Source: Hypericibacter terrae
GTDB taxonomy: Bacteria; Pseudomonadota; Alphaproteobacteria; Dongiales; Dongiaceae
Assembly (NCBI RefSeq): GCF_008728855.1
Contig: NZ_CP042906.1
Span: 992,001 to 1,056,000 of the forward strand
DNA length: 64,000 nucleotides
Direction: 5' to 3'
The notes under the pieces are model-generated. The model was not told the DNA's origin and searched no databases. It was given only the letters and a program-made list of their open reading frames with translations. Positions within the stretch are counted from its first letter, which is position 1; each line of letters begins with the position of its first letter. Shown piece after piece: positions 48,967 through 58,435 of this stretch. The position numbers were made by a program, and so were the translations under genes.

Positions 48967-48976
48967 ACGCGAGGTC

Positions 48977-49100
48977 TCAGAGCTTCGGCCGGCGGTCGTC
49001 GCTGTCATACATCGGCCGCAACCGCTCATAGGCGCTGGCGGCGCGGAACATCGCGACATCGTCATAGGGGCGGCCGACGATCTGCCGGCCCGATAGCACG
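48977..49100 (-). pseudogene. Duplicated 3' end of the amidase gene
   Basis: The segment encodes QIVGRPYDDVAMFRAASAYE and the following RLRPMYDSDDRRPKL, the last 36 or so residues of the neighbouring amidase, with its own stop. 48981-49100 aligns without gaps to 49344-49463, with about 10 differences in 120 positions counted by eye. It has no start of its own and is separated from the intact gene by the 79-residue gene. Confidence 0.9.
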
Positions 49101-49103
49101 TAC

Positions 49104-49343
49104 CTAGGTTTCAGGGCTGGAGTTGCCAAGCCACTCGACCCGGCCTCGTGCGTCTCGTTCCGCATCGATCGCGGAAGCAAAGAGCGATGCCGTGTACTTT
49201 CGAAGCCTGATCCAGGCCATTTCGAGCGGCTCGTCGCTGAATCTTTCTTCCTCGAAGCCGTAAGTTCCGTCGTCACGCCGAAAAATAATCACCCGGCGCT
49301 TCCCATCGCGGTCGTAGATCGTATTGATGGTGTTCTCGCTCAC
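49104..49343 (-). CDS. Small uncharacterised protein between amidase repeats
   Basis: The 79-residue protein reads MSENTINTIYDRDGKRRVII, then RRDDGTYGFEEERFSDEPLE and ends near RDARGRVEWLGNSSPET. The DGTYGFEEER and ARGRVEWL motifs recall a small orphan family scattered in alphaproteobacteria, from memory and without a known role. The GTG start overlaps the amidase stop (GTGA), so it is translationally coupled. It is enclosed by the direct repeats of the amidase 3' end. Confidence 0.7.
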   Translation of the reverse strand: MSENTINTIYDRDGKRRVIIFRRDDGTYGFEEERFSDEPLEMAWIRLRKYTASLFASAIDAERDARGRVEWLGNSSPET

Positions 49344-50767
49344 AGCTTCGGCCGGCGGTCGTCGCTGTCATACATCGGCCGCAGCCGCTCATAGGCGCTC
49401 GCGGCGCGGAACACGGCGACATCGTCATAGGGACGCCCGACGATCTGCAGGCCCGTCGGCACGCCCGACTTGGCGAAGCCCGAGGGCACGTTCATGACCG
49501 GACAGCGGCTCATGGCATTGAAGGGCGGCGTCATGCACCAGTCGAGATAGCCGTCGATCTTGACGCCGTTGATCTTCATGCCCGGATCGCCGAGATCGGC
49601 GTCGGCCTTGATCGCCGGCAGGGCCAGGGTCGGGCAGATCAGCAGGTCGTAGGTCTGGAACAGCGCGCCCAGCTTCTCATACATGGCGCTCTCGATCTCC
49701 ATGCCCTCGACGAAATCGACCAGCGTCGTCTTCTTGGCGCGGCGCGCGAACTCGCGGGTATAGGGCATCATCTTGCGGCCATGCTCGGGGATCAGGCGCG
49801 AGACCCAGGCGCCGAAGAGGCCGGAGAGATGGGCCCAGGTGGCGCGATTCACGTCCTTGGTCCAGCCGATCTTGACCTCTTCCACCTTGGCGCCGAGGTC
49901 GCGCAGGGCGGCCGCCGCGGCCTTGGTGTTGGCCACGACCTCGCTGTCGACCTCGTAGAAATCGAGATCGACCGAGAGCGCGATGCGCCAGCCCTTGATG
50001 CCTTCGAACTTGTCGGGGATGCGCAGCTTCGGGCGCACCGGCACGATGTCGCGCGGATGCGGGCCCGACATGACGTTCTGCAGCATCGCCACGTCCGAGA
50101 CCGAGCGGGCCATGGGGCCGGCATGGTTGTACCAGTCGAGATTGAAGGGGCCGGAATCGGGATTGCGGCCATAGGGCGGCTTGAAACCATAGACGCCGCA
50201 GGCGGAAGCCGGGATGCGGATCGAGCCGCCGATGTCGGAGCCATTGGCGAGCGTGGTGGTGCCGGCCGCGAGCGAGGCACCGGCGCCGCCCGACGAGCCG
50301 CCCGAGGTGTAATAGAGATTCCAGGGCGTGCGGGTCGTGCCCCAGAGCTTGGTGTGGGTGATCGGCGCGCAGGAGAATTCGGGCGCGCAGGAGCGCGCCA
50401 GCATGATGGCGCCCGCCTTGAAGATCAGCTCCGCCGGCGGCGCCGTGACCGTGTCGACATTGTCCTTGAACACCAGCGAGCCGAAGGTGGTGCGCTCGCC
50501 CTTGATGGTGGTCTCGTCCTTGATGACGATCGCAAGGCCCTCGAGCGGCCGGGTGCGGCCGTCGGTGCGCATATATTTCGCCTCGGCCTTCTTGGCCTGG
50601 TCGATGGCGCGGTCATAGAAGGTATAGGTAAAAGCATTGACCTTGCTCTCGACTCGCTCGGCGCGCTCCACCAGCGCCCGCACCAGCTCCACCGGCGACA
50701 GCTTTTTGGTCTTGAAGCGCCGTACCGCTTCGGTCGCGGACAGATAGCAAAGATCGAGATCCGTCAT
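49340..50767 (-). CDS. Amidase of the amidase-signature family
   Basis: The 475-residue protein has the Ser-cisSer-Lys triad region: the Lys in AIVIKDETTIKGERTTFGS near 82, the glycine-serine loop YTSGGSSGGAGASLAAG, and the nucleophile in NGSDIGGSIRIPASACG near 180. Family members hydrolyse many amides, so the substrate is unknown. The ATG at 50767 starts MTDLDLCYLSATEAVRRF. The 3' end is duplicated downstream. Its neighbour on the upstream side is moaE, 140 bases away. Confidence 0.93.
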   Translation of the reverse strand: MTDLDLCYLSATEAVRRFKTKKLSPVELVRALVERAERVESKVNAFTYTFYDRAIDQAKKAEAKYMRTDGRTRPLEGLAIVIKDETTIKGERTTFGSLVFKDNVDTVTAPPAELIFKAGAIMLARSCAPEFSCAPITHTKLWGTTRTPWNLYYTSGGSSGGAGASLAAGTTTLANGSDIGGSIRIPASACGVYGFKPPYGRNPDSGPFNLDWYNHAGPMARSVSDVAMLQNVMSGPHPRDIVPVRPKLRIPDKFEGIKGWRIALSVDLDFYEVDSEVVANTKAAAAALRDLGAKVEEVKIGWTKDVNRATWAHLSGLFGAWVSRLIPEHGRKMMPYTREFARRAKKTTLVDFVEGMEIESAMYEKLGALFQTYDLLICPTLALPAIKADADLGDPGMKINGVKIDGYLDWCMTPPFNAMSRCPVMNVPSGFAKSGVPTGLQIVGRPYDDVAVFRAASAYERLRPMYDSDDRRPKL

Positions 50768-50907: not shown

Positions 50908-51354
50908 CTAGAGCCAGCGCTTCTTCGCGGTGTCGTCGCTGTCGCGCGCGCTCACCCATTCGCCGCCGTCGGGAGTCTCTTCGAGCTTCCAGAAAGGCGC
51001 GTCGGTCTTGAGCCAGTCGATCAGGAACTGGCAGCTCTCGAGCGCGGCCGCGCGATGGGCCGAGGCGGTGATCACCAGCACGATCCGGTCGCCGGGTTCG
51101 AGCCGGCCATAGCGATGAATGACGAGGCTGCCCTGGAGCGCCCATCGCCGATGCGCTTCGGTCTCGATCTCGCCGAGCTTCTTCTCGGTCATGCCGGGAT
51201 AATGCTCGAGCGTCATGGCGCCGATCGGCTTGTCGCCCGCCATGTCGCGCACGAGCCCGACGAAGCAAGCAAGCCCTCCGATGTCGTGGCGGCCGCGCGT
51301 CAGCGTCGCCATCTCGGCGCCGGGATCGAAATCTTCGCGTTGGACACGGATCAT
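50908..51354 (-). CDS. moaE: Molybdopterin synthase catalytic subunit
   Basis: The 148-residue protein has DIGGLACFVGLVRDMAGDKP, the catalytic-site region MTLEHYPGMTEKKLGEIE, HRYGRLEPGDRIVLVIT and the Lys-containing LKTDAPFWKLEETPDGGEW. It inserts two dithiolene sulfurs from MoaD into precursor Z. It lies 12 bases downstream of moaD. Confidence 0.95.
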   Translation of the reverse strand: MIRVQREDFDPGAEMATLTRGRHDIGGLACFVGLVRDMAGDKPIGAMTLEHYPGMTEKKLGEIETEAHRRWALQGSLVIHRYGRLEPGDRIVLVITASAHRAAALESCQFLIDWLKTDAPFWKLEETPDGGEWVSARDSDDTAKKRWL

Positions 51355-51366
51355 GGCAGCGTCCGC

Positions 51367-51618
51367 TCAGCCGCCGGTGACGGGCGGGAACAGGGCGACC
51401 TCGTCGTTGGCCGCGACCGGATGGTCGAAATCGACATAGTCTTGATTGACCGCGACGCGCACCAGCTTCCGGTCGGCCAGCGCCGCGCGATAGCCGGGGC
51501 CGCGCTGGGCCAGCCAATCGACCAGGGCCCCCACCGTCTTGACCTCGGCGGGCGGCGCCAATTCCTCTTCGCCGCAGCCGATCCGGGCGCGGAACAAGGC
51601 AAAATAGAGCAGTTTCAT
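51367..51618 (-). CDS. moaD: Molybdopterin synthase sulfur-carrier subunit
   Basis: The 83-residue ubiquitin-like protein starts MKLLYFALFRARIGCGEEEL and ends in the Gly-Gly tail FPPVTGG required for thiocarboxylation by MoeB. It donates sulfur within the MoaD/MoaE synthase. Followed by moaE. Confidence 0.95.
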   Translation of the reverse strand: MKLLYFALFRARIGCGEEELAPPAEVKTVGALVDWLAQRGPGYRAALADRKLVRVAVNQDYVDFDHPVAANDEVALFPPVTGG

Positions 51619-52228: not shown

Positions 52229-53353
52229 TCACGCGTAACCGAAGACGCTCGCCACGGTGGCGGTTCGTTCACGAACGGTCCCGACTTCGGCCGGCGAAAA
52301 TTTCAGCCGGTAATAATCCGGCTTGCGCAGTCGCTCCTCCGCCTGGCGCAGCAGCGCATCGTCGGGCTCGAGATCCGCATGCGTCAGGATGCCGCCAACC
52401 GTTTCCCGCGGCGCCGCCACGAGATCCTCGTAGCGGACGATCAGGATCGCGCTCGCCAGCGCGTCGTCGGTCTCGATCTCCTTGGCCATCAGCCCATAGA
52501 GCTCGGCCCATTGCAGGGCCCAGCCTTCCGCCTCGCAGCCGGCCTGCCACAGCGCCCGGATCTCCGCGGTCGCGTCGGCATTGCCGCAATGGATCGGCCG
52601 GCGATCGAGCCCGAACTCGAAATGGCCGGCGCGGGCCAGATGCCGCCTGGCGGCCGGGTAGCGCGTCTGCGCGTCGCAGAACAGCCGATGCTGTTTCATC
52701 AACGAGGCCACATGCCAGAGCGGCTCGCGGATCGGCACGACGAAGCGCGCGTCGGGAAAGAGCTTCAGCAGATAGCCATGGCGCGTGCTGTCGTAATTGG
52801 CCTTGGCGAGATAGCGGGGCCGGTCGCGCACCAGCATCAGCTTGCGCAAATGGTCGCGCAGGAAGTTCTCGAAGGCGGGCTCGTCGACGCGCGCATCCAG
52901 CAGGGCCGAACGCGCCGCGTCATGGAGATCGGGAAAGAAGGCCATCCAGGCCGGCTCTTCGAAGGCTTCCGGGCTGTCCGAGGTCACCATGATTCCGTCG
53001 TGATGGGCCCGCTCCGCCGGCGTCTCCGCCTTCAGCGGCATGAATCCCAGGAGGCGGTTCCAGAGATAGGGAGTCAGCACCGGCGGGAAATCGCGATAGC
53101 GGTGGCTGGCGAGCTGCGGGTGCGAGGCCAGAAGCTCGAGCAGCATGGTCGAGCCGCTGCGGGCGAGGCCGGTGATCCAGACCGGGGCGGTGATCGGCTG
53201 GCGATCCAGCCGGTCGCGCAGCAGGCGGCTTTCCCAGCCTGCGGCGGCGCGCATCACGGCGCTGCGCTGGCACAGGACGGTGCCGAGCGCATCCATCCAC
53301 CCCGCCACCTTGAAGCTGGCGAGGCGGTCGCCCGCGGCCGGGCGATCGCTCAT
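52229..53353 (-). CDS. Cytosolic PAPS-dependent sulfotransferase
   Basis: The 374-residue protein has the 5'-phosphosulfate-binding P-loop WITGLARSGSTMLLELLASH (near 70-89) and the 3'-phosphate motif RFVVPIREPLWHVASLMKQH. It resembles the Sulfotransfer_3 group, with long insertions. It transfers sulfate from PAPS to a hydroxyl or amine; the acceptor is unknown. The ATG overlaps the stop of the upstream membrane-protein gene (ATGA). It ends the four-gene cluster that begins at 55859. Confidence 0.85.
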   Translation of the reverse strand: MSDRPAAGDRLASFKVAGWMDALGTVLCQRSAVMRAAAGWESRLLRDRLDRQPITAPVWITGLARSGSTMLLELLASHPQLASHRYRDFPPVLTPYLWNRLLGFMPLKAETPAERAHHDGIMVTSDSPEAFEEPAWMAFFPDLHDAARSALLDARVDEPAFENFLRDHLRKLMLVRDRPRYLAKANYDSTRHGYLLKLFPDARFVVPIREPLWHVASLMKQHRLFCDAQTRYPAARRHLARAGHFEFGLDRRPIHCGNADATAEIRALWQAGCEAEGWALQWAELYGLMAKEIETDDALASAILIVRYEDLVAAPRETVGGILTHADLEPDDALLRQAEERLRKPDYYRLKFSPAEVGTVRERTATVASVFGYA

Positions 53354-54090
53354 GCGATCCGCCAGACGCGCTTGATGGCCAGGGAAGCGCTCAGCATGAC
53401 CGCGAAGAACAGCGGCTCCCAGCCGCGCAGCCAGGCGGGTCCCATCCGCAGCATTTCCTGGGCCGGCAGTGCGATCTCGACACGGTCGACGGCGCTGTCG
53501 GCGGGAAGATAGCCCGCGGGATTGCCGACCAGCGCGTGCCACCAGCGCCGCTTCTCCACGACCGGCACCGGCTTCGGCAAGGGAATCGAGGTCGCGACCG
53601 CGCCGCTGGGGTCGCGCAGCAGGAGGCGATGCTGTTCGGGCCGCATCGCCTGATGCGGCACGACCGAGAGTTCCGCGGCGACACCGGCGGCGGCGGGCGA
53701 GGCGGCCACGTCCACCGCGGTGTCATTGTCAGGGAAGCGGTAGCCATAGCTGGTCGAGAGCCAGGCCAGCAGGGCGAGGATCGGCAGCATCGCCAGCAGC
53801 ACACCCGGCAGCACCAGCCCGATGCGCCGCAGGGCCGTCTTCAGCAGGTTGCGGATCAGCGGCCAGGCCTCGGCGAACTCGCCGTCATAGCCGTCGAGCG
53901 CGCGGCGCGCGGCCAGCGCGTCGCTCTGCGCCCGGACGATCCGGGCTTGCGGCGAGGCGAAGCGATAGATCGCCATCGAGAGCGCGGCCGCGATCATCGC
54001 CCAGAGCGCCAGACGACCGGGGGCCGGCAGCGCCTGCATCATCTGGTCGAGCCAGCCGAAGGCCAGTCCCGGCCAATCGAGCGCGCCCAT
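53350..54090 (-). CDS. Three-helix membrane protein resembling EMC3/YidC-like insertases
   Basis: The 246-residue protein has helix 1 near 28-46 and a basic, coiled-coil cytoplasmic stretch with ARIVRAQSDALAARRALDGY. Helix 2 is near 92-112 (GLVLPGVLLAMLPILALLAW). A soluble region of about 110 residues, probably periplasmic, and a C-terminal helix near 228-243 complete it. The helix / coiled-coil / LP-rich helix order recalls DUF106/EMC3 and other Oxa1-type proteins. This is inference from layout only. It overlaps the sulfotransferase gene, and GGAGG lies before its ATG. Confidence 0.7.
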   Translation of the reverse strand: MGALDWPGLAFGWLDQMMQALPAPGRLALWAMIAAALSMAIYRFASPQARIVRAQSDALAARRALDGYDGEFAEAWPLIRNLLKTALRRIGLVLPGVLLAMLPILALLAWLSTSYGYRFPDNDTAVDVAASPAAAGVAAELSVVPHQAMRPEQHRLLLRDPSGAVATSIPLPKPVPVVEKRRWWHALVGNPAGYLPADSAVDRVEIALPAQEMLRMGPAWLRGWEPLFFAVMLSASLAIKRVWRIA

Positions 54091-54117
54091 GAGCGACTCC
54101 TCCGTCCAATGTGACGA

Positions 54118-54387
54118 TCAGCGGTGCTGGGGGGTGCGGCGAACCTCCGACCCGGCAATGACGGTCGGGCGGGGATCGGATTGTGCGTCCGGTTTGCGGC
54201 GGCGCTTCAGCCAGCGCCGGACCGGCCAGGCCACGACGAATCCGATGGCGGCGAAGAGGGCGAGGAGCAGGCCCCAGAGCGCGCCCAGCAGGCTGAGGCC
54301 CGCGCCGGGGCCGACATAAGCGAAGGCGGGCTGGGCGAGGGTCGCAGCCCCGAGGATGACCGCGACGGCGACGATAAGCTTGTTCAT
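54118..54387 (-). CDS. Small secreted or membrane protein with AYVGPGAG motif
   Basis: The 89-residue protein has a signal-like N-terminus (KLIVAVAVILGAATLAQPAF) and the motif AYVGPGAGLSLLG leading directly into a second helix (ALWGLLLALFAAIGFVVAWP) and a basic WPVRRWLKRRRKP tail. AAGGAG lies 7 bases before the ATG at 54387; a TTG at 54393 is less likely. It is within the sulfotransferase/arylsulfotransferase cluster. Similar small AYVGPGAG proteins occur beside envelope polysaccharide or sulfatase genes, from memory only. Confidence 0.75.
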   Translation of the reverse strand: MNKLIVAVAVILGAATLAQPAFAYVGPGAGLSLLGALWGLLLALFAAIGFVVAWPVRRWLKRRRKPDAQSDPRPTVIAGSEVRRTPQHR

Positions 54388-54437
54388 TCCCAATCTCCTT
54401 GCTTGATCAGTTTCTCTTGAGCCGTACGGTTCCCCTT

Positions 54438-55859
54438 CTATTGCGGCGCGAGCCAGCCGCCGACCTGGTCGGCCGTGAAGCGCGCGCCCCCGGTGACGAT
54501 CGGAATGCGCCGGTCGGCAGATCCGCCCCGCACCGGATTCATGTATTCCCAGGCGATCTCGCCCTGCGCCGTGACTTCGACGAGACGGCCGCCGTCGGAT
54601 TCCGTGATCAGGCTGTTGCCATCGGGCAGGCGCTGCACGTTGGATCGCAGCACGCTCTCGAGCGGATGGCCTGCCGCGCCGTCATATTCCCAGGCGATGG
54701 TCATGTCGGCGGGATCGATTTCCAGCAGGCGCGAGCTGCCCAGCGGACCGACATTGCCGAGATTGTCGAACATCAGAAGATGGCCGTTCGCCAGCAGCGA
54801 CGGATCATGCTGTCCCAGCCAGGGCCCGCGCGCAGCCCAGACGAAGCGGCCCTGGCGCGGATCGAGCACCGCGAGCAGGCTTGCCTCGCGGAAGGAGAGC
54901 AGCACGTCGCCCGCCTGCCACGCGGCCGGCGCATCGGCGGCTTTCGCGTCGATGGGCTTGGCGGCGTTGGCATGGAGCGGATCCTGGCGGCCATAGTCGG
55001 ACAGGGCCGCGAGGAACTTGCGATAGGGCGAGGCCGCCATCGCGTCCAGGAGCGAGATCTTCTGCTCCACCTTTCCGTCGGGCGAGAGGACCACGAGGAA
55101 ATCCTCCAGCATCGGCGTCTCGAGCTGGGGCATGCTGCCGACCGGCTGGTCGCGGAGCCGGTGAGTGAGGGTATAGATCCGTCCGTCCGCGCCGACTTCG
55201 ACATCGTGATGGACGCGGTCGAGATATTTCCAGATGACCTTCGAATCCTTGGTCATCTTCACCAGCCCCAGGCCCCAGGGCGTATCGCCGACGCCGCTGT
55301 AGACGGCCAGGATATCGCCGTTGGGGAACAGATGGACCTTGTCGAAGCTGACGAAGCTGTCGGGCCGCGGCTTCGCCACGACCGAGCTCGAATCCCACAC
55401 CTGGCTGAAGGGCAGGCGCCATTCATGGACGATGCGGCCGTTCATATCGATCAGATAGGCGGCGGCATCGTGGCCGGAGCTGTAGAGCGTGAAGCCGGGG
55501 AAGGCCTTGCCGCTGTCGGCGACGGTCACGCCGCGCTGCTCGCTGCGCGCATCGGCCCAGAGATCGGTCTGCAGCGGCTCCTGGTAGTGAATCGCCTTGT
55601 CATAGAGCGCCATGCCGGCGCTGTAGGCGTCCTTCAGCAGGCCATAGGGCGGCAGCTTGTCCAGCACCACGTAGGCGCCGCCGACAAAGGCGAGAAAGCA
55701 GCAGCAGAGCGTGAAGATCATCGCGCCTGTCCGCGAAGGCTCCGCATCGGCCGGCGGCGCCGACAGGCGCAGCCTTTCTCCACCCCGATCCCGCCCGGTG
55801 CCGAAGGGCGGCGTCGGACCGAGAAGCGTCGGGTCGAGCTGGGGTCGTTCGAGGGACAT
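54438..55859 (-). CDS. Membrane-anchored arylsulfotransferase (ASST) family protein
   Basis: The 473-residue protein has one N-terminal membrane helix (47-67, AMIFTLCCCFLAFVGGAYVV) and a beta-propeller of ASST type. Blade motifs include RVHHDVEVGADGRIYTL, GQHDPSLLANGHLLMFDN, and SNVQRLPDGNSLITESDGG then LVEVTAQGEIAWEY. ASSTs move sulfate between phenolic donors and acceptors without PAPS, through a catalytic His; which His serves here is not settled. The propeller would be periplasmic. It is the first gene of the cluster. Confidence 0.85.
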   Translation of the reverse strand: MSLERPQLDPTLLGPTPPFGTGRDRGGERLRLSAPPADAEPSRTGAMIFTLCCCFLAFVGGAYVVLDKLPPYGLLKDAYSAGMALYDKAIHYQEPLQTDLWADARSEQRGVTVADSGKAFPGFTLYSSGHDAAAYLIDMNGRIVHEWRLPFSQVWDSSSVVAKPRPDSFVSFDKVHLFPNGDILAVYSGVGDTPWGLGLVKMTKDSKVIWKYLDRVHHDVEVGADGRIYTLTHRLRDQPVGSMPQLETPMLEDFLVVLSPDGKVEQKISLLDAMAASPYRKFLAALSDYGRQDPLHANAAKPIDAKAADAPAAWQAGDVLLSFREASLLAVLDPRQGRFVWAARGPWLGQHDPSLLANGHLLMFDNLGNVGPLGSSRLLEIDPADMTIAWEYDGAAGHPLESVLRSNVQRLPDGNSLITESDGGRLVEVTAQGEIAWEYMNPVRGGSADRRIPIVTGGARFTADQVGGWLAPQ

Positions 55860-56073: not shown

Positions 56074-56640
56074 TCAGGGGCGCTTTTCGGGCTTCGAGAA
56101 ATCGCCGCCGGCGCCCTCGATCATGCTGACGCCGGTCTCGCGCTGGTAGATCAGGAGATCGAGCGACGGCGCTTCGCCGGCGATTTCGGTGACCAGCGTG
56201 TGGGCCTGGCCGCGATGATGAGTCTGGTGATTGAAGAAATGAAGCAGCAGCGGTGCCAGTTCCTGCTCGAGTTCGGCCGGGCTGCGGGTGGAGCGGTAGC
56301 GGATCGTGGCGCCGAGTGCCGTGTCCGTCAAACCGCCCATATAGAGAATGATCCGACGGTCAAGCGTCTCCCGGGCCTGGCGCAGATCGGCGAGATCGTG
56401 ATGGACGATGACATCGAGCCCGGCCGGCGCCTCGCCCTCGCCGGTGAAGCGCCGCATCCAGATGAGATCGCCGACCAGAAGGTGATTGAAGGTGCCGTGC
56501 AGAGAGCCGAAGAAGGCGCCGCGATCGGCACGGTAATCGCGATCGGGAATCGTCGAGGCCGCGCCAAAGAGCCGCCGGTTGGCCCATTGATTGTAGGCGG
56601 CCATCATGGTGAAGAGCGGCTTGACCGGAGAGATCGTCAT
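56074..56640 (-). CDS. DinB-family protein
   Basis: The 188-residue protein is a four-helix bundle of the DinB superfamily. The likely metal ligands are His in LHGTFNHLLVGDLIW near 50-64 and the pair in HFFNHQTHHRGQAHTL near 132-147. Members act as thiol-dependent S-transferases or have unknown roles. The ATG overlaps the moeA stop by 4 bases. Confidence 0.9.
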   Translation of the reverse strand: MTISPVKPLFTMMAAYNQWANRRLFGAASTIPDRDYRADRGAFFGSLHGTFNHLLVGDLIWMRRFTGEGEAPAGLDVIVHHDLADLRQARETLDRRIILYMGGLTDTALGATIRYRSTRSPAELEQELAPLLLHFFNHQTHHRGQAHTLVTEIAGEAPSLDLLIYQRETGVSMIEGAGGDFSKPEKRP

Positions 56641-57923
56641 CGCAGATCGCTGAAGGGGAGGAAATCGATCAGGTCGCCCGGCGCCACCGCGGTCACTTCC
56701 TCGGCGATCTCGACCAGCCCCGTGGCCGTCGTCATCGAGGTGAGGATACCGGAGCCTTCGCGCTCGAAGCGCTGCACCGCTTGTTTTCCGGTCGCATCGG
56801 TCTCGATCCAGCCGCGCAGGAATTCGCGCCGGTCGCGCTTCTTGCGCAGGGAGAAGGCGGCGGGCAGGCGGTAGCGCACCGGCTCCAGATCCGTGGCCCC
56901 CATCAGCCCCAGGATCAAGGGCCGCGCGATCCGCAGATAAGTGACCATGGCGGCCACCGGATTCCCCGGCAGGCCGACGAAGGGGACCGCGCGTCCGCCC
57001 GCATCGATCTGGCCCAGGGCCACGGGCCGGCCGGGCTTGATTGCCAGGCGCCAGAAATGCAGCCGCCCCATTGTGGCGATCGCCGCCTTGATGTGATCTT
57101 CCTCGCCGGTCGAGACGCCGCCCGAGGTCAGCAGCAGATCGTGATCGCGTGCCGCGACCTGCAGCGCGAGCCGCACCGCGTCGGGCCGGTCCGGCAGGAT
57201 GCCGAGATCGCTGACCGAAGCACCGCTCTGGCGCAGCAGGGCGCCGAGGATATAGCGGTTGGAATCGTGGATCGTGCCGCTGCTCAGCGGCTGTCCCGGC
57301 TCCGCCAATTCGTCGCCGGTCGAGAACAGCGCCACCCGCAGCCGGGTCCGCAAGGCGAGCCGGGCCTGTCCCGCGGCCGCGGCGAGGCCGATCTCCTGGG
57401 GACGCAACCGGGTCCCGGCTTCGAGAATCTTGCGGCCGGCGGTGACGTCCTCGCCGCGCCGGCGCCGGTTCTGGCCGCGCTTGAGACCGGCACCAATCAC
57501 GACGCTGTCGCCCTCGACCCGGCACTCCTCCTGCATCGCCACCGTGTCGGGGCCGGACGTCCCGTCCGGGCCCGTCGGCATGGCGGCTCCCGTGAAGATG
57601 CGCACGGCGGTGCCGCGCGGCTGAGGATGGCTCAAGGGATGGCCGGCGGCGGCACGACCCGCGATCGGCAGGCGCGTCTCGCCGGGGGGACCGAGGTCTT
57701 CCGCATAGACCGCATAGCCATCCACGGCGGCATTGTCATGGCCGGGCACGTCGAATCCGGCGATGACATCGGCCGCCAGAATCCGGTCCTGCGCCGCTTC
57801 GAGCGGCAGCGTCTCGGTACCGACGACGCAGTGGACGCGCTGGCGCAGCAGCGCCAGGGCCGTCTCGAGCGGCATCAGCGGCTCGCTGTTGGAAAAGCAA
57901 TCGCGATCGAGCGACGGGGTCAT
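56637..57923 (-). CDS. moeA: Molybdopterin molybdenumtransferase
   Basis: The 428-residue protein has the MoeA domain order: N-terminal LALLRQRV and VIAGFDVPGHDNAAVDGYAV, the RIFTGAAMPTGPDGTSG region, GRVALFSTGDELAEPG, SGGVSTGEEDHI and the C-terminal beta barrel ending LIDFLPFSDLR. It inserts molybdate into molybdopterin. The ATG overlaps the mobB stop. The gene order pgsA-mobB-moeA-dinB is tightly overlapped. Confidence 0.94.
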   Translation of the reverse strand: MTPSLDRDCFSNSEPLMPLETALALLRQRVHCVVGTETLPLEAAQDRILAADVIAGFDVPGHDNAAVDGYAVYAEDLGPPGETRLPIAGRAAAGHPLSHPQPRGTAVRIFTGAAMPTGPDGTSGPDTVAMQEECRVEGDSVVIGAGLKRGQNRRRRGEDVTAGRKILEAGTRLRPQEIGLAAAAGQARLALRTRLRVALFSTGDELAEPGQPLSSGTIHDSNRYILGALLRQSGASVSDLGILPDRPDAVRLALQVAARDHDLLLTSGGVSTGEEDHIKAAIATMGRLHFWRLAIKPGRPVALGQIDAGGRAVPFVGLPGNPVAAMVTYLRIARPLILGLMGATDLEPVRYRLPAAFSLRKKRDRREFLRGWIETDATGKQAVQRFEREGSGILTSMTTATGLVEIAEEVTAVAPGDLIDFLPFSDLR

Positions 57924-58435
57924 CCGGCCGGTCGGCGCGCCGTCAGCCCGCAATAATCCAGGATGAAATCTGCGATCATCCGGGTGTCGTTCAGCGCCAG
58001 CACCGGCAGCGTCACCTCCGGCAGGGGGCCGTCGCTGGCGACCGCGACGATATGCGCATCCTCGGGATGGAGCAGGGGCTTGCCATTAGCCCGGCGATAG
58101 ACCTCGAGCTTGGGATGGGACTCGCGCTTGAAGCCCTCGATCAGCAGCAGATCGACCGGCGTCATCTGCCGCATCAGCTCGGCCGCGCTCGGTTCCGGCC
58201 CGCCGCGATTCTCATGCATCAGGGCCCAGCGATTGATCGAGGACACCACGACTTCCGTCGCTCCTGCCGAGCGATGGACATAGGAGTCCTTGCCGGGCTG
58301 GTCGATATCGAAGTTGTGATGGGCATGCTTCATGGTCGAAACCGTGAGGCCGCGCCCGATCAGCTCGGGCAGCAGGCGCATCATCAAGGTGGTCTTGCCG
58401 CTGCCGCTCCAGCCGGCGAGGCCCATCACTTTCAT
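57920..58435 (-). CDS. mobB: Molybdopterin-guanine dinucleotide biosynthesis protein B
   Basis: The 171-residue P-loop protein has GLAGWSGSGKTTLMMRLLPE at the N-terminus, TMKHAHHNFDIDQPGKDSYV and LLLIEGFKRESHPKLEVYRR. It binds GTP and helps attach GMP to the molybdenum cofactor. The start overlaps the pgsA stop and the stop overlaps moeA. Confidence 0.95.
   Translation of the reverse strand: MKVMGLAGWSGSGKTTLMMRLLPELIGRGLTVSTMKHAHHNFDIDQPGKDSYVHRSAGATEVVVSSINRWALMHENRGGPEPSAAELMRQMTPVDLLLIEGFKRESHPKLEVYRRANGKPLLHPEDAHIVAVASDGPLPEVTLPVLALNDTRMIADFILDYCGLTARRPAG

Follow-up and report, generated by a model that had tools for sequence, protein, structure and literature searches.

A conserved four-gene unit that sets a putative Oxa1-type membrane protein between two sulfotransferases: a possible two-compartment sulfuryl relay

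How bacteria sulfate molecules that lie outside the inner membrane is, to our knowledge, poorly understood. 3'-Phosphoadenosine-5'-phosphosulfate (PAPS) is cytosolic and arylsulfate sulfotransferases (ASSTs) act outside, therefore something must carry the sulfate across. The question is raised by a four-gene unit of Hypericibacter terrae (assembly GCF_008728855.1), which lies in a 64,000-nucleotide stretch of contig NZ_CP042906.1 (positions 992,001 to 1,056,000), referred to here as the window. The unit encodes an ASST-family enzyme (54438-55859; 473 aa; PF14269, E 2.3e-26), a small AYVGPGAG membrane protein known from its translation (54118-54387; 89 aa counted from the ATG, with an in-frame TTG two codons upstream), a three-helix membrane protein with a beta-rich domain which we call EMC3L (53350-54090; 246 aa; profile match to archaeal MJ0480) and a PF13469 sulfotransferase (ST; 52229-53353; 374 aa; E 9.8e-21). 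The genes run in one direction, as the initial annotation had described, and occupy the minus strand in this order. The first two are 50 bases apart and the next two 27 bases apart, and the ATGA overlap reported for the EMC3L stop and the ST start is present at 53350-53353. The host genome (5.89 Mb, a single contig) encodes an adenylylsulfate (APS) kinase and PAPS should therefore be available. We give even odds to a two-compartment sulfuryl relay as the function of the unit.

Conservation of the unit was determined from two sides. Genome contigs were scanned with a seven-sequence EMC3L profile, using two peptide patterns, which gave a non-exhaustive set of 70 loci that holds several close species (Thalassospira, Mesorhizobium, Stutzerimonas) and in which gene families were called with iterated profiles. 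Going by their record titles, these loci come mostly from Alpha- and Gammaproteobacteria, with one from Sumerlaeota. All four families were observed at 52 of the 70, a count that includes the degraded locus L058, locus L089 in which EMC3L and ST form one open reading frame (ORF), and three Mesorhizobium loci where ASST comes last; the exact order and strand ASST-small protein-EMC3L-ST was kept at 44. At 11 loci ASST is absent and a PF01663-related enzyme of the alkaline phosphatase superfamily (AP) is found, in L090 at a distance of ~6.7 kb, so that ASST or AP is present at 63 of the 70. Several of the remaining seven (L028, L029, L033, L038, L043, L046 and L055) are cut by contig ends; in L029 and L038 the upstream sequence is present and ASST is not in it. 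In the genome samples, EMC3L was found in 7/116 genomes of relatives, all within the family of the window, and in 8/398 genomes of the phylum, with the small protein within 2.2 kb in all eight.

The small-protein profile was run on three samples, namely the phylum, the class of genome G298 and the host's own class, and matched 15/398, 16/369 and 14/385 genomes respectively, or 40 distinct genomes; a further class search (2/48) contributed no new genome. Five weak matches (G844, G840, G685, G544 and G1091; E 4.7e-7 to 4.9e-5) were dropped because they belong to an AY[VIL]DPG[ST]GS family, without ST or ASST by the models. The 35 genomes that remain overlap with the 70 EMC3L loci, and the two sets are not independent. 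ST stands beside the small protein in 34 of the 35 (34/40 if the weak matches are kept), and the 35th, L179, has no ST by profile and carries a divergently adjacent PF13469 gene. ASST is found beside the small protein in 30/35 genomes (on the opposite strand in L160 and L162), and two of the five loci without it carry AP. The four genes are thus found together widely outside the window, which the initial annotation had named as a check on its proposal, and this recurrence, with 52 loci found through EMC3L alone and with the small-protein genomes beside them, leads us to reject chance neighbourhood.

EMC3L itself is present at 21 of the 35 small-protein loci (window included). At 13 of the 14 loci without it another protein, predicted by eye to be a membrane protein, occupies the third slot between the small protein and ST. 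These alternative proteins have 234-249 aa in L121 and L125 and are short, mostly 121-133 aa, in nine loci; in L167 and L178 the third-slot protein is fused to the N terminus of ST. Eleven aligned short proteins share a D..K(E) motif. Homology of the short proteins to EMC3L was not supported (hhalign P 0.25, inside the block-shuffle range), and neither was that of the long proteins of L121 and L125, each taken singly (P 0.012 and 0.053).

The unit does not appear to be part of a larger operon. Of the 38 members of one ORF cluster, which spanned 30 loci, 37 lie over a unit gene and are shadow ORFs; once this cluster was set aside, no further gene recurred in more than nine of the 70 loci. The next-largest clusters, of at most nine loci, are nearly all Thalassospira synteny, and one sulfatase/AP-type cluster was observed at six AP-type loci. 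On the clusters viewed, a larger operon was therefore rejected, as the recurrent extra ORFs are shadow ORFs or mostly Thalassospira synteny, and with no further gene above nine loci the four genes look self-contained. Two degraded copies were also seen: L055 (7872-9058) of Nitrococcus mobilis Nb-231, where an intact EMC3L lies between remnants of ASST and ST, and L058 (5960-8279) of a gammaproteobacterial metagenome-assembled genome.

What kind of protein is EMC3L? Neither EMC3L nor the small protein reached the cut-off of any Pfam or NCBIfam family. An EMC3L alignment of 62 out of 77 sequences (7 + 70, several identical) was used as a profile, and it finds MJ0480 with E 1.1e-6, the next chain having E 0.26; with the earlier seven-sequence profile MJ0480 was also the best match (E 0.19). 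The match scores 30.6 bits, whereas none of 40 block-shuffled profiles exceeded 10.0 and reversed MJ0480 scored 5.2; for the pair, hhalign gave E 1.9e-4 (probability 48). With the MJ0480 stretch as query, YidC2 was found at E 0.022 and OXA1L lower in the list. With E values up to 5 allowed, none of the 62 members matched PF01956 (EMC3_TMCO1) and two matched PF02096 (YidC; best E 0.042); the host genome holds no PF01956 match. On the strength of the MJ0480 match, its shuffle control and hhalign, the likeness to EMC3 and YidC pointed out in the initial annotation holds, and by these sequence comparisons EMC3L is a new branch of the Oxa1 superfamily.

An AlphaFold2 model of EMC3L built on the 62 sequences (predicted local distance difference test, pLDDT, 91.5; predicted template modelling score, pTM, 0.82) replaced a poor one built on seven (pLDDT 74.7). 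Its helices span residues 8-17, 23-45, 48-66, 72-115 and 224-243, with the beta-rich domain before the last. Taken with hydropathy, the model predicts a three-helix core in which a cytosolic helical hairpin links helices 1 and 2, and a beta-rich domain of ~100 residues between helices 2 and 3 which is predicted to be periplasmic. The net charges of the segments (-2.2, +2.5, -3.9 and +0.9) put EMC3L N-out/C-in with the beta domain outside, a topology predicted from charge only. Helical models often reach high structural Z values by chance. Among 993 chains compared with VIA-align, chain 8 of the multipass translocon 7tut, which we take to be TMCO1, ranked first (Z 10.3, 4.2 A, 136 residues). 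Second came an unrelated chain (Z 7.7, 51 residues), followed by WRB/GET1 (6so5 chain C; Z 7.4). As these values are possibly due to chance for helical proteins, the Oxa1 assignment rests on the sequence result; Foldseek with the same model gave no match below E 0.1. In the beta-rich domain W183, N190, P191 and G193 are identical in 62/62 sequences and W184 and Y194 in 61/62, and the conserved motifs are W-W, NPxG and GPxW. Lysine or arginine is found at position 43 (here R43) in 82% and at position 88 (here R88) in 89%, both at cytosolic ends.

The position of EMC3L within the unit is also reflected in gene fusions. AP and EMC3L lie in one frame, with AP N-terminal, in L082 and L093, and EMC3L and ST lie in one frame, with ST C-terminal, in L089. 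A signal-bearing AP is thus attached to the outer end of EMC3L and ST to the inner one, an arrangement that fits the N-out/C-in topology. We regard these fusions as the best genomic hint that EMC3L stands between the two reactions. A further AP-EMC3L fusion in L086 was rejected, since the long ORF there runs across the AP gene in a different frame and AP is a separate ORF.

We then asked what the two enzymes of the unit retain of known active sites. The ASST scores 93.3 bits against PF14269 (cut-off 27) and 33.1 against PF05935 (cut-off 24.2), and has an N-terminal hydrophobic helix at about residues 49-66, with the enzyme domain predicted to be periplasmic. The loci hold 71 well-covered ASST matches; in an alignment of 45 sequences, H217, H218, H296, N298, R324 and H351 were identical in all 45. 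The active site of E. coli AssT includes His252, His356, Asn358, Arg374, His436 and Thr501, and His436 is transiently sulfated (PMC13426309). His351 aligns with His436 of AssT (3elq, E 0.32), and H217/H218, H296-x-N298 and R324 were equated with His252, His356/Asn358 and Arg374 by pattern only. A relative scoring better than AssT is 9kf4/9kf6, titled 'Sulfotransferase' (E 1.2e-8), and a single-sequence search of the PDB with the ASST gave nothing significant. The ST scores 75.4 bits against PF13469 (cut-off 27), and no signal was seen in it. The loci hold 70 well-covered ST matches, and R65, T69, R209 and S217 are identical in all 39 aligned sequences; R65/T69 and R209...S217 are what we take to be PAPS-site motifs. 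Among solved sequences it comes nearest to protein-tyrosine sulfotransferases (E 8.5e-11), through three short motifs. Judged by these alignments, both enzymes retain their active-site residues.

The small protein was described initially as secreted or membrane-bound, and inspection by eye refines this to a signal peptide with one membrane helix: a signal-like stretch ending in A-F-A is followed by Tyr24 (codon 54316-54318), Gly-Pro-Gly, the hydrophobic helix and a basic tail. Among 71 distinct strings, Tyr-x-Gly-Pro-Gly was flagged by script in 68 and is readable in 69, counting a split match in L082; the two without it are degraded L058 and L090 (YIGPAAG). In the 69, alanine stands at -1 in 68 and at -3 in 63. 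At the genome-sample loci, some of whose records are shared with the 71-string set, tyrosine and the preceding alanine were found in 34/34, alanine at -3 in 31/34, and proline at +3 and glycine at +4 (tyrosine being 0) in 33/34 each. The protein is identical in G004 and in the Dongia deserti record L036. At the sequence level, then, a nearly invariant tyrosine directly follows a signal-peptidase-like A-x-A site, and with cutting at this site the mature protein would therefore begin with tyrosine. A fixed residue at +1 after a signal-peptidase site is unusual, and the sulfate ester of tyrosine belongs to the aryl sulfates, which ASSTs use as donors.

Based on these findings, the relay may be pictured as follows. 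ST would sulfate a carrier in the cytosol with PAPS; EMC3L and the small protein would let the charged carrier cross the inner membrane in a groove of the Oxa1 type, the crossing part being possibly the small protein's own carrier segment, or else a sulfated lipid; and the membrane-anchored ASST would receive the sulfuryl group on His351 and transfer it to an envelope or external acceptor, for which a sugar hydroxyl on a surface polymer is a candidate. Translocation of extracytoplasmic segments is known for YidC-type proteins (PMC8675477) and lipid scrambling for insertases (PMC10491306), so EMC3L could pass either a lipid that bears sulfate or the small protein's tail. The initial annotation had proposed a sulfated carrier made inside whose sulfate is passed on outside; this is consistent with the active sites, the fusions and the charge topology, and the chemistry we infer. 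We also put forward, tentatively and as somewhat unlikely in this exact form, that the small protein shuttles sulfate on its tyrosine, by analogy with known acyl carriers. Signal peptidase would free the N-terminal tyrosine, and the flexible Tyr-x-Gly-Pro-Gly tail would dip into the EMC3L groove, where ST could sulfate the tyrosine from PAPS; the tail would then swing to the periplasmic side, where ASST (through His351) or AP would take over the aryl sulfate for sulfation of a surface polymer.

A surface glycan is a plausible acceptor, because the unit with a short third protein in L122 adjoins flippase-type and sugar-epimerase genes, the unit of L123 is near a carbamoyltransferase gene and neighbours that look by eye like glycosyltransferases, and the ASST Cpz4 sulfates a sugar hydroxyl (PMC13426309). 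The halophile H. anticariensis FP35 carries the unit (L054), and the research group working on it reports sulfates in the exopolysaccharides of all its halophiles (PMC2953402); this link is a single correlation.

The nearest known systems each share a part of this picture. In the caprazamycin pathway the PAPS sulfotransferase Cpz8 produces a phenolic sulfate ester which serves the ASST Cpz4 as donor, but this is a Streptomyces antibiotic pathway with triketide pyrones as the carrier, and the passages of PMC4257720 mention no EMC3L-like or AYVGPGAG protein. The statement of the initial annotation that no described system with this make-up is known has to be qualified, as a relay from a PAPS sulfotransferase to an ASST is already known from that pathway (PMC4257720), where no membrane protein passing the group is mentioned. 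In logic the proposed relay resembles the Dlt, Pat and Oat acyl relays (DltB/DltX/DltD, PatA/PatB, OatA), which have a cytosolic donor, a membrane protein, an extracytoplasmic transferase, an envelope polymer and a tyrosine carrier borne by a membrane microprotein or by a terminal peptide (PMC12148441). These move acyl and not sulfuryl groups through MBOAT or AT3 proteins instead of an Oxa1-type one, and the tyrosine of DltX is near the C terminus whereas that of the small protein is the predicted mature N terminus; the likeness is an analogy and not a claim of homology. EMC3L shares with MJ0480, EMC3, TMCO1 and GET1 the predicted three helices and cytosolic hairpin, with the profile match to MJ0480 and with structural matches to 7tut chain 8 and WRB/GET1 that may be due to chance, but it is bacterial, stands in a sulfotransferase operon, carries a beta domain between helices 2 and 3 and the W-W, NPxG and GPxW motifs, and falls below PF01956 detection. 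E. coli AssT, encoded with DsbL/DsbI, belongs to the same PAPS-independent periplasmic enzyme family and shares active-site residues, but has redox helpers in its operon where our unit has a PAPS enzyme, the small protein, EMC3L and a membrane anchor (PMC13426309). In one open-access library no paper naming AYVGPGAG was found, and among the titles and abstract openings listed none describes the four-gene unit.

Several variants of the unit were observed. In L179 (2174-7302) an AYIGPGAG segment is fused to a PF01663 AP which by eye faces the cytosol, and a second, lipoprotein-like PF01663 AP stands with EMC3L (hhalign E 2e-8), with the PF13469 gene divergent beside them; here both relay reactions may be done by AP enzymes. 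In G004 (C21; L025-L027) several tandem ASST copies stand next to a small protein with AYIGPGVG, a diverged ST and a third-slot protein of the short kind, so that this genome has a further unit of another make-up. Members of the sister family, with AY[VIL]DPG[ST]GS after a signal-like stretch and no ASST or ST by the models, were found in L169 (1717-1971), L170 (364-576), L171 (3223-3588), L172 (7030-7269) and L183 (5912-7189). The member in L170 is near a phosphoenolpyruvate mutase/cytidylyltransferase, that in L171 near a CDP-glycerol glycerophosphotransferase-type gene, and that in L183 is fused to a longer protein. Two neighbours in L169 resemble other kinds of sulfotransferase by eye, one of them without a Pfam match. 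The terminal-tyrosine logic may serve other groups in this family, which together with the AP variant suggests that related units may move phosphate-type groups.

Other explanations have to be weighed against the relay. EMC3L might be only a scaffold or a dedicated insertase that anchors ST or inserts the small protein; there would then be a complex and no relay, with ST acting on a membrane acceptor and ASST on its own exogenous aryl sulfates. This would suit the known Oxa1 members, which are insertases with small partners such as EMC6, GET2 and OPTI (PMC8675477, PMC9630114), and simple anchoring fits the ST fusions of L089, L167 and L178. However, the outer enzyme is kept or swapped for AP, one or other being present at 63/70 loci, and AP is fused to EMC3L in two, and we regard this explanation as unlikely. 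Two separate sulfations that merely share an operon, ST acting on a cytosolic or lipid export substrate and ASST on another periplasmic substrate with imported phenol sulfates as donor, seem to us decidedly improbable: the linkage of the small protein to both ST (34/35) and ASST (30/35) and the fusions point to one process, even though the natural substrates of E. coli AssT have been suggested to come from urine (PMC13426309) and ASST paralogues stand without the other three families within ~1.5 kb in related genomes.

The relay might also move a group that is not sulfate, or not only sulfate, such as phosphate or a phosphodiester, with the ST and ASST folds having drifted. AP without ASST at 11/70 loci, the two APs of L179 and the sister proteins near phosphoenolpyruvate-mutase and glycerophosphotransferase-type genes would agree with this; on the other side, the PAPS-site and AssT-type residues are invariant in the aligned sequences and even L179 has its PF13469 gene, and we hold it to be highly improbable. 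Some observations nevertheless count against a sulfuryl relay. AP belongs to a phosphodiesterase-type family, and some units may therefore transfer a group other than sulfate; the alignment of ASST to 3elq is weak (E 0.32). In EMC3L no conserved mid-membrane charge comparable to the groove arginine of YidC was seen, and by hhalign no relation between it and the alternative third-slot proteins could be demonstrated. L180 consists of the small protein and ST with no third-slot protein between them, and with no ASST or EMC3L within 14.2 kb; L175 is without ASST within 8.9 kb; and L093 has the AP-EMC3L fusion with no small protein or ST within 16.7 kb. No acceptor gene was linked to the EMC3L loci in the ORF clusters viewed, which were all except one of seven and one of five loci, and the one of seven partly overlaps the unit.

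No promoter-like site was found, and terminator-like sites numbered two against 1.4 expected. A DinB-family gene lies directly upstream of the unit; MoaE and ThiS-family genes (50908-51618) stand on one side and moeA/mobB genes (56637-58435) on the other. These molybdopterin genes are taken as unrelated to the unit; no such cluster stood out around the other loci, where no search by name was made. A 125-base repeat (48976-49100 and 49339-49463, 363 bases apart, 91% identity) covers the 3' end of an amidase gene (PF01425) and is a partial duplication.

A conserved unit of a PAPS enzyme, a membrane protein that may pass the group on and a predicted periplasmic sulfotransferase offers a concrete and testable answer to how sulfation is achieved outside the inner membrane. 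If this is true, the unit would provide a physiological setting for ASSTs, which is poorly understood for most of them (PMC13426309). Sulfated surface polymers are of interest for materials and medicine. The Oxa1 superfamily would gain a proteobacterial branch, whose role is perhaps not to insert proteins. Should the tyrosine shuttle in particular prove true, sulfation would have a relay across the membrane comparable to those of Dlt and Pat acylation, in which an Oxa1-type protein serves as a group-transfer gate and not as an insertase.

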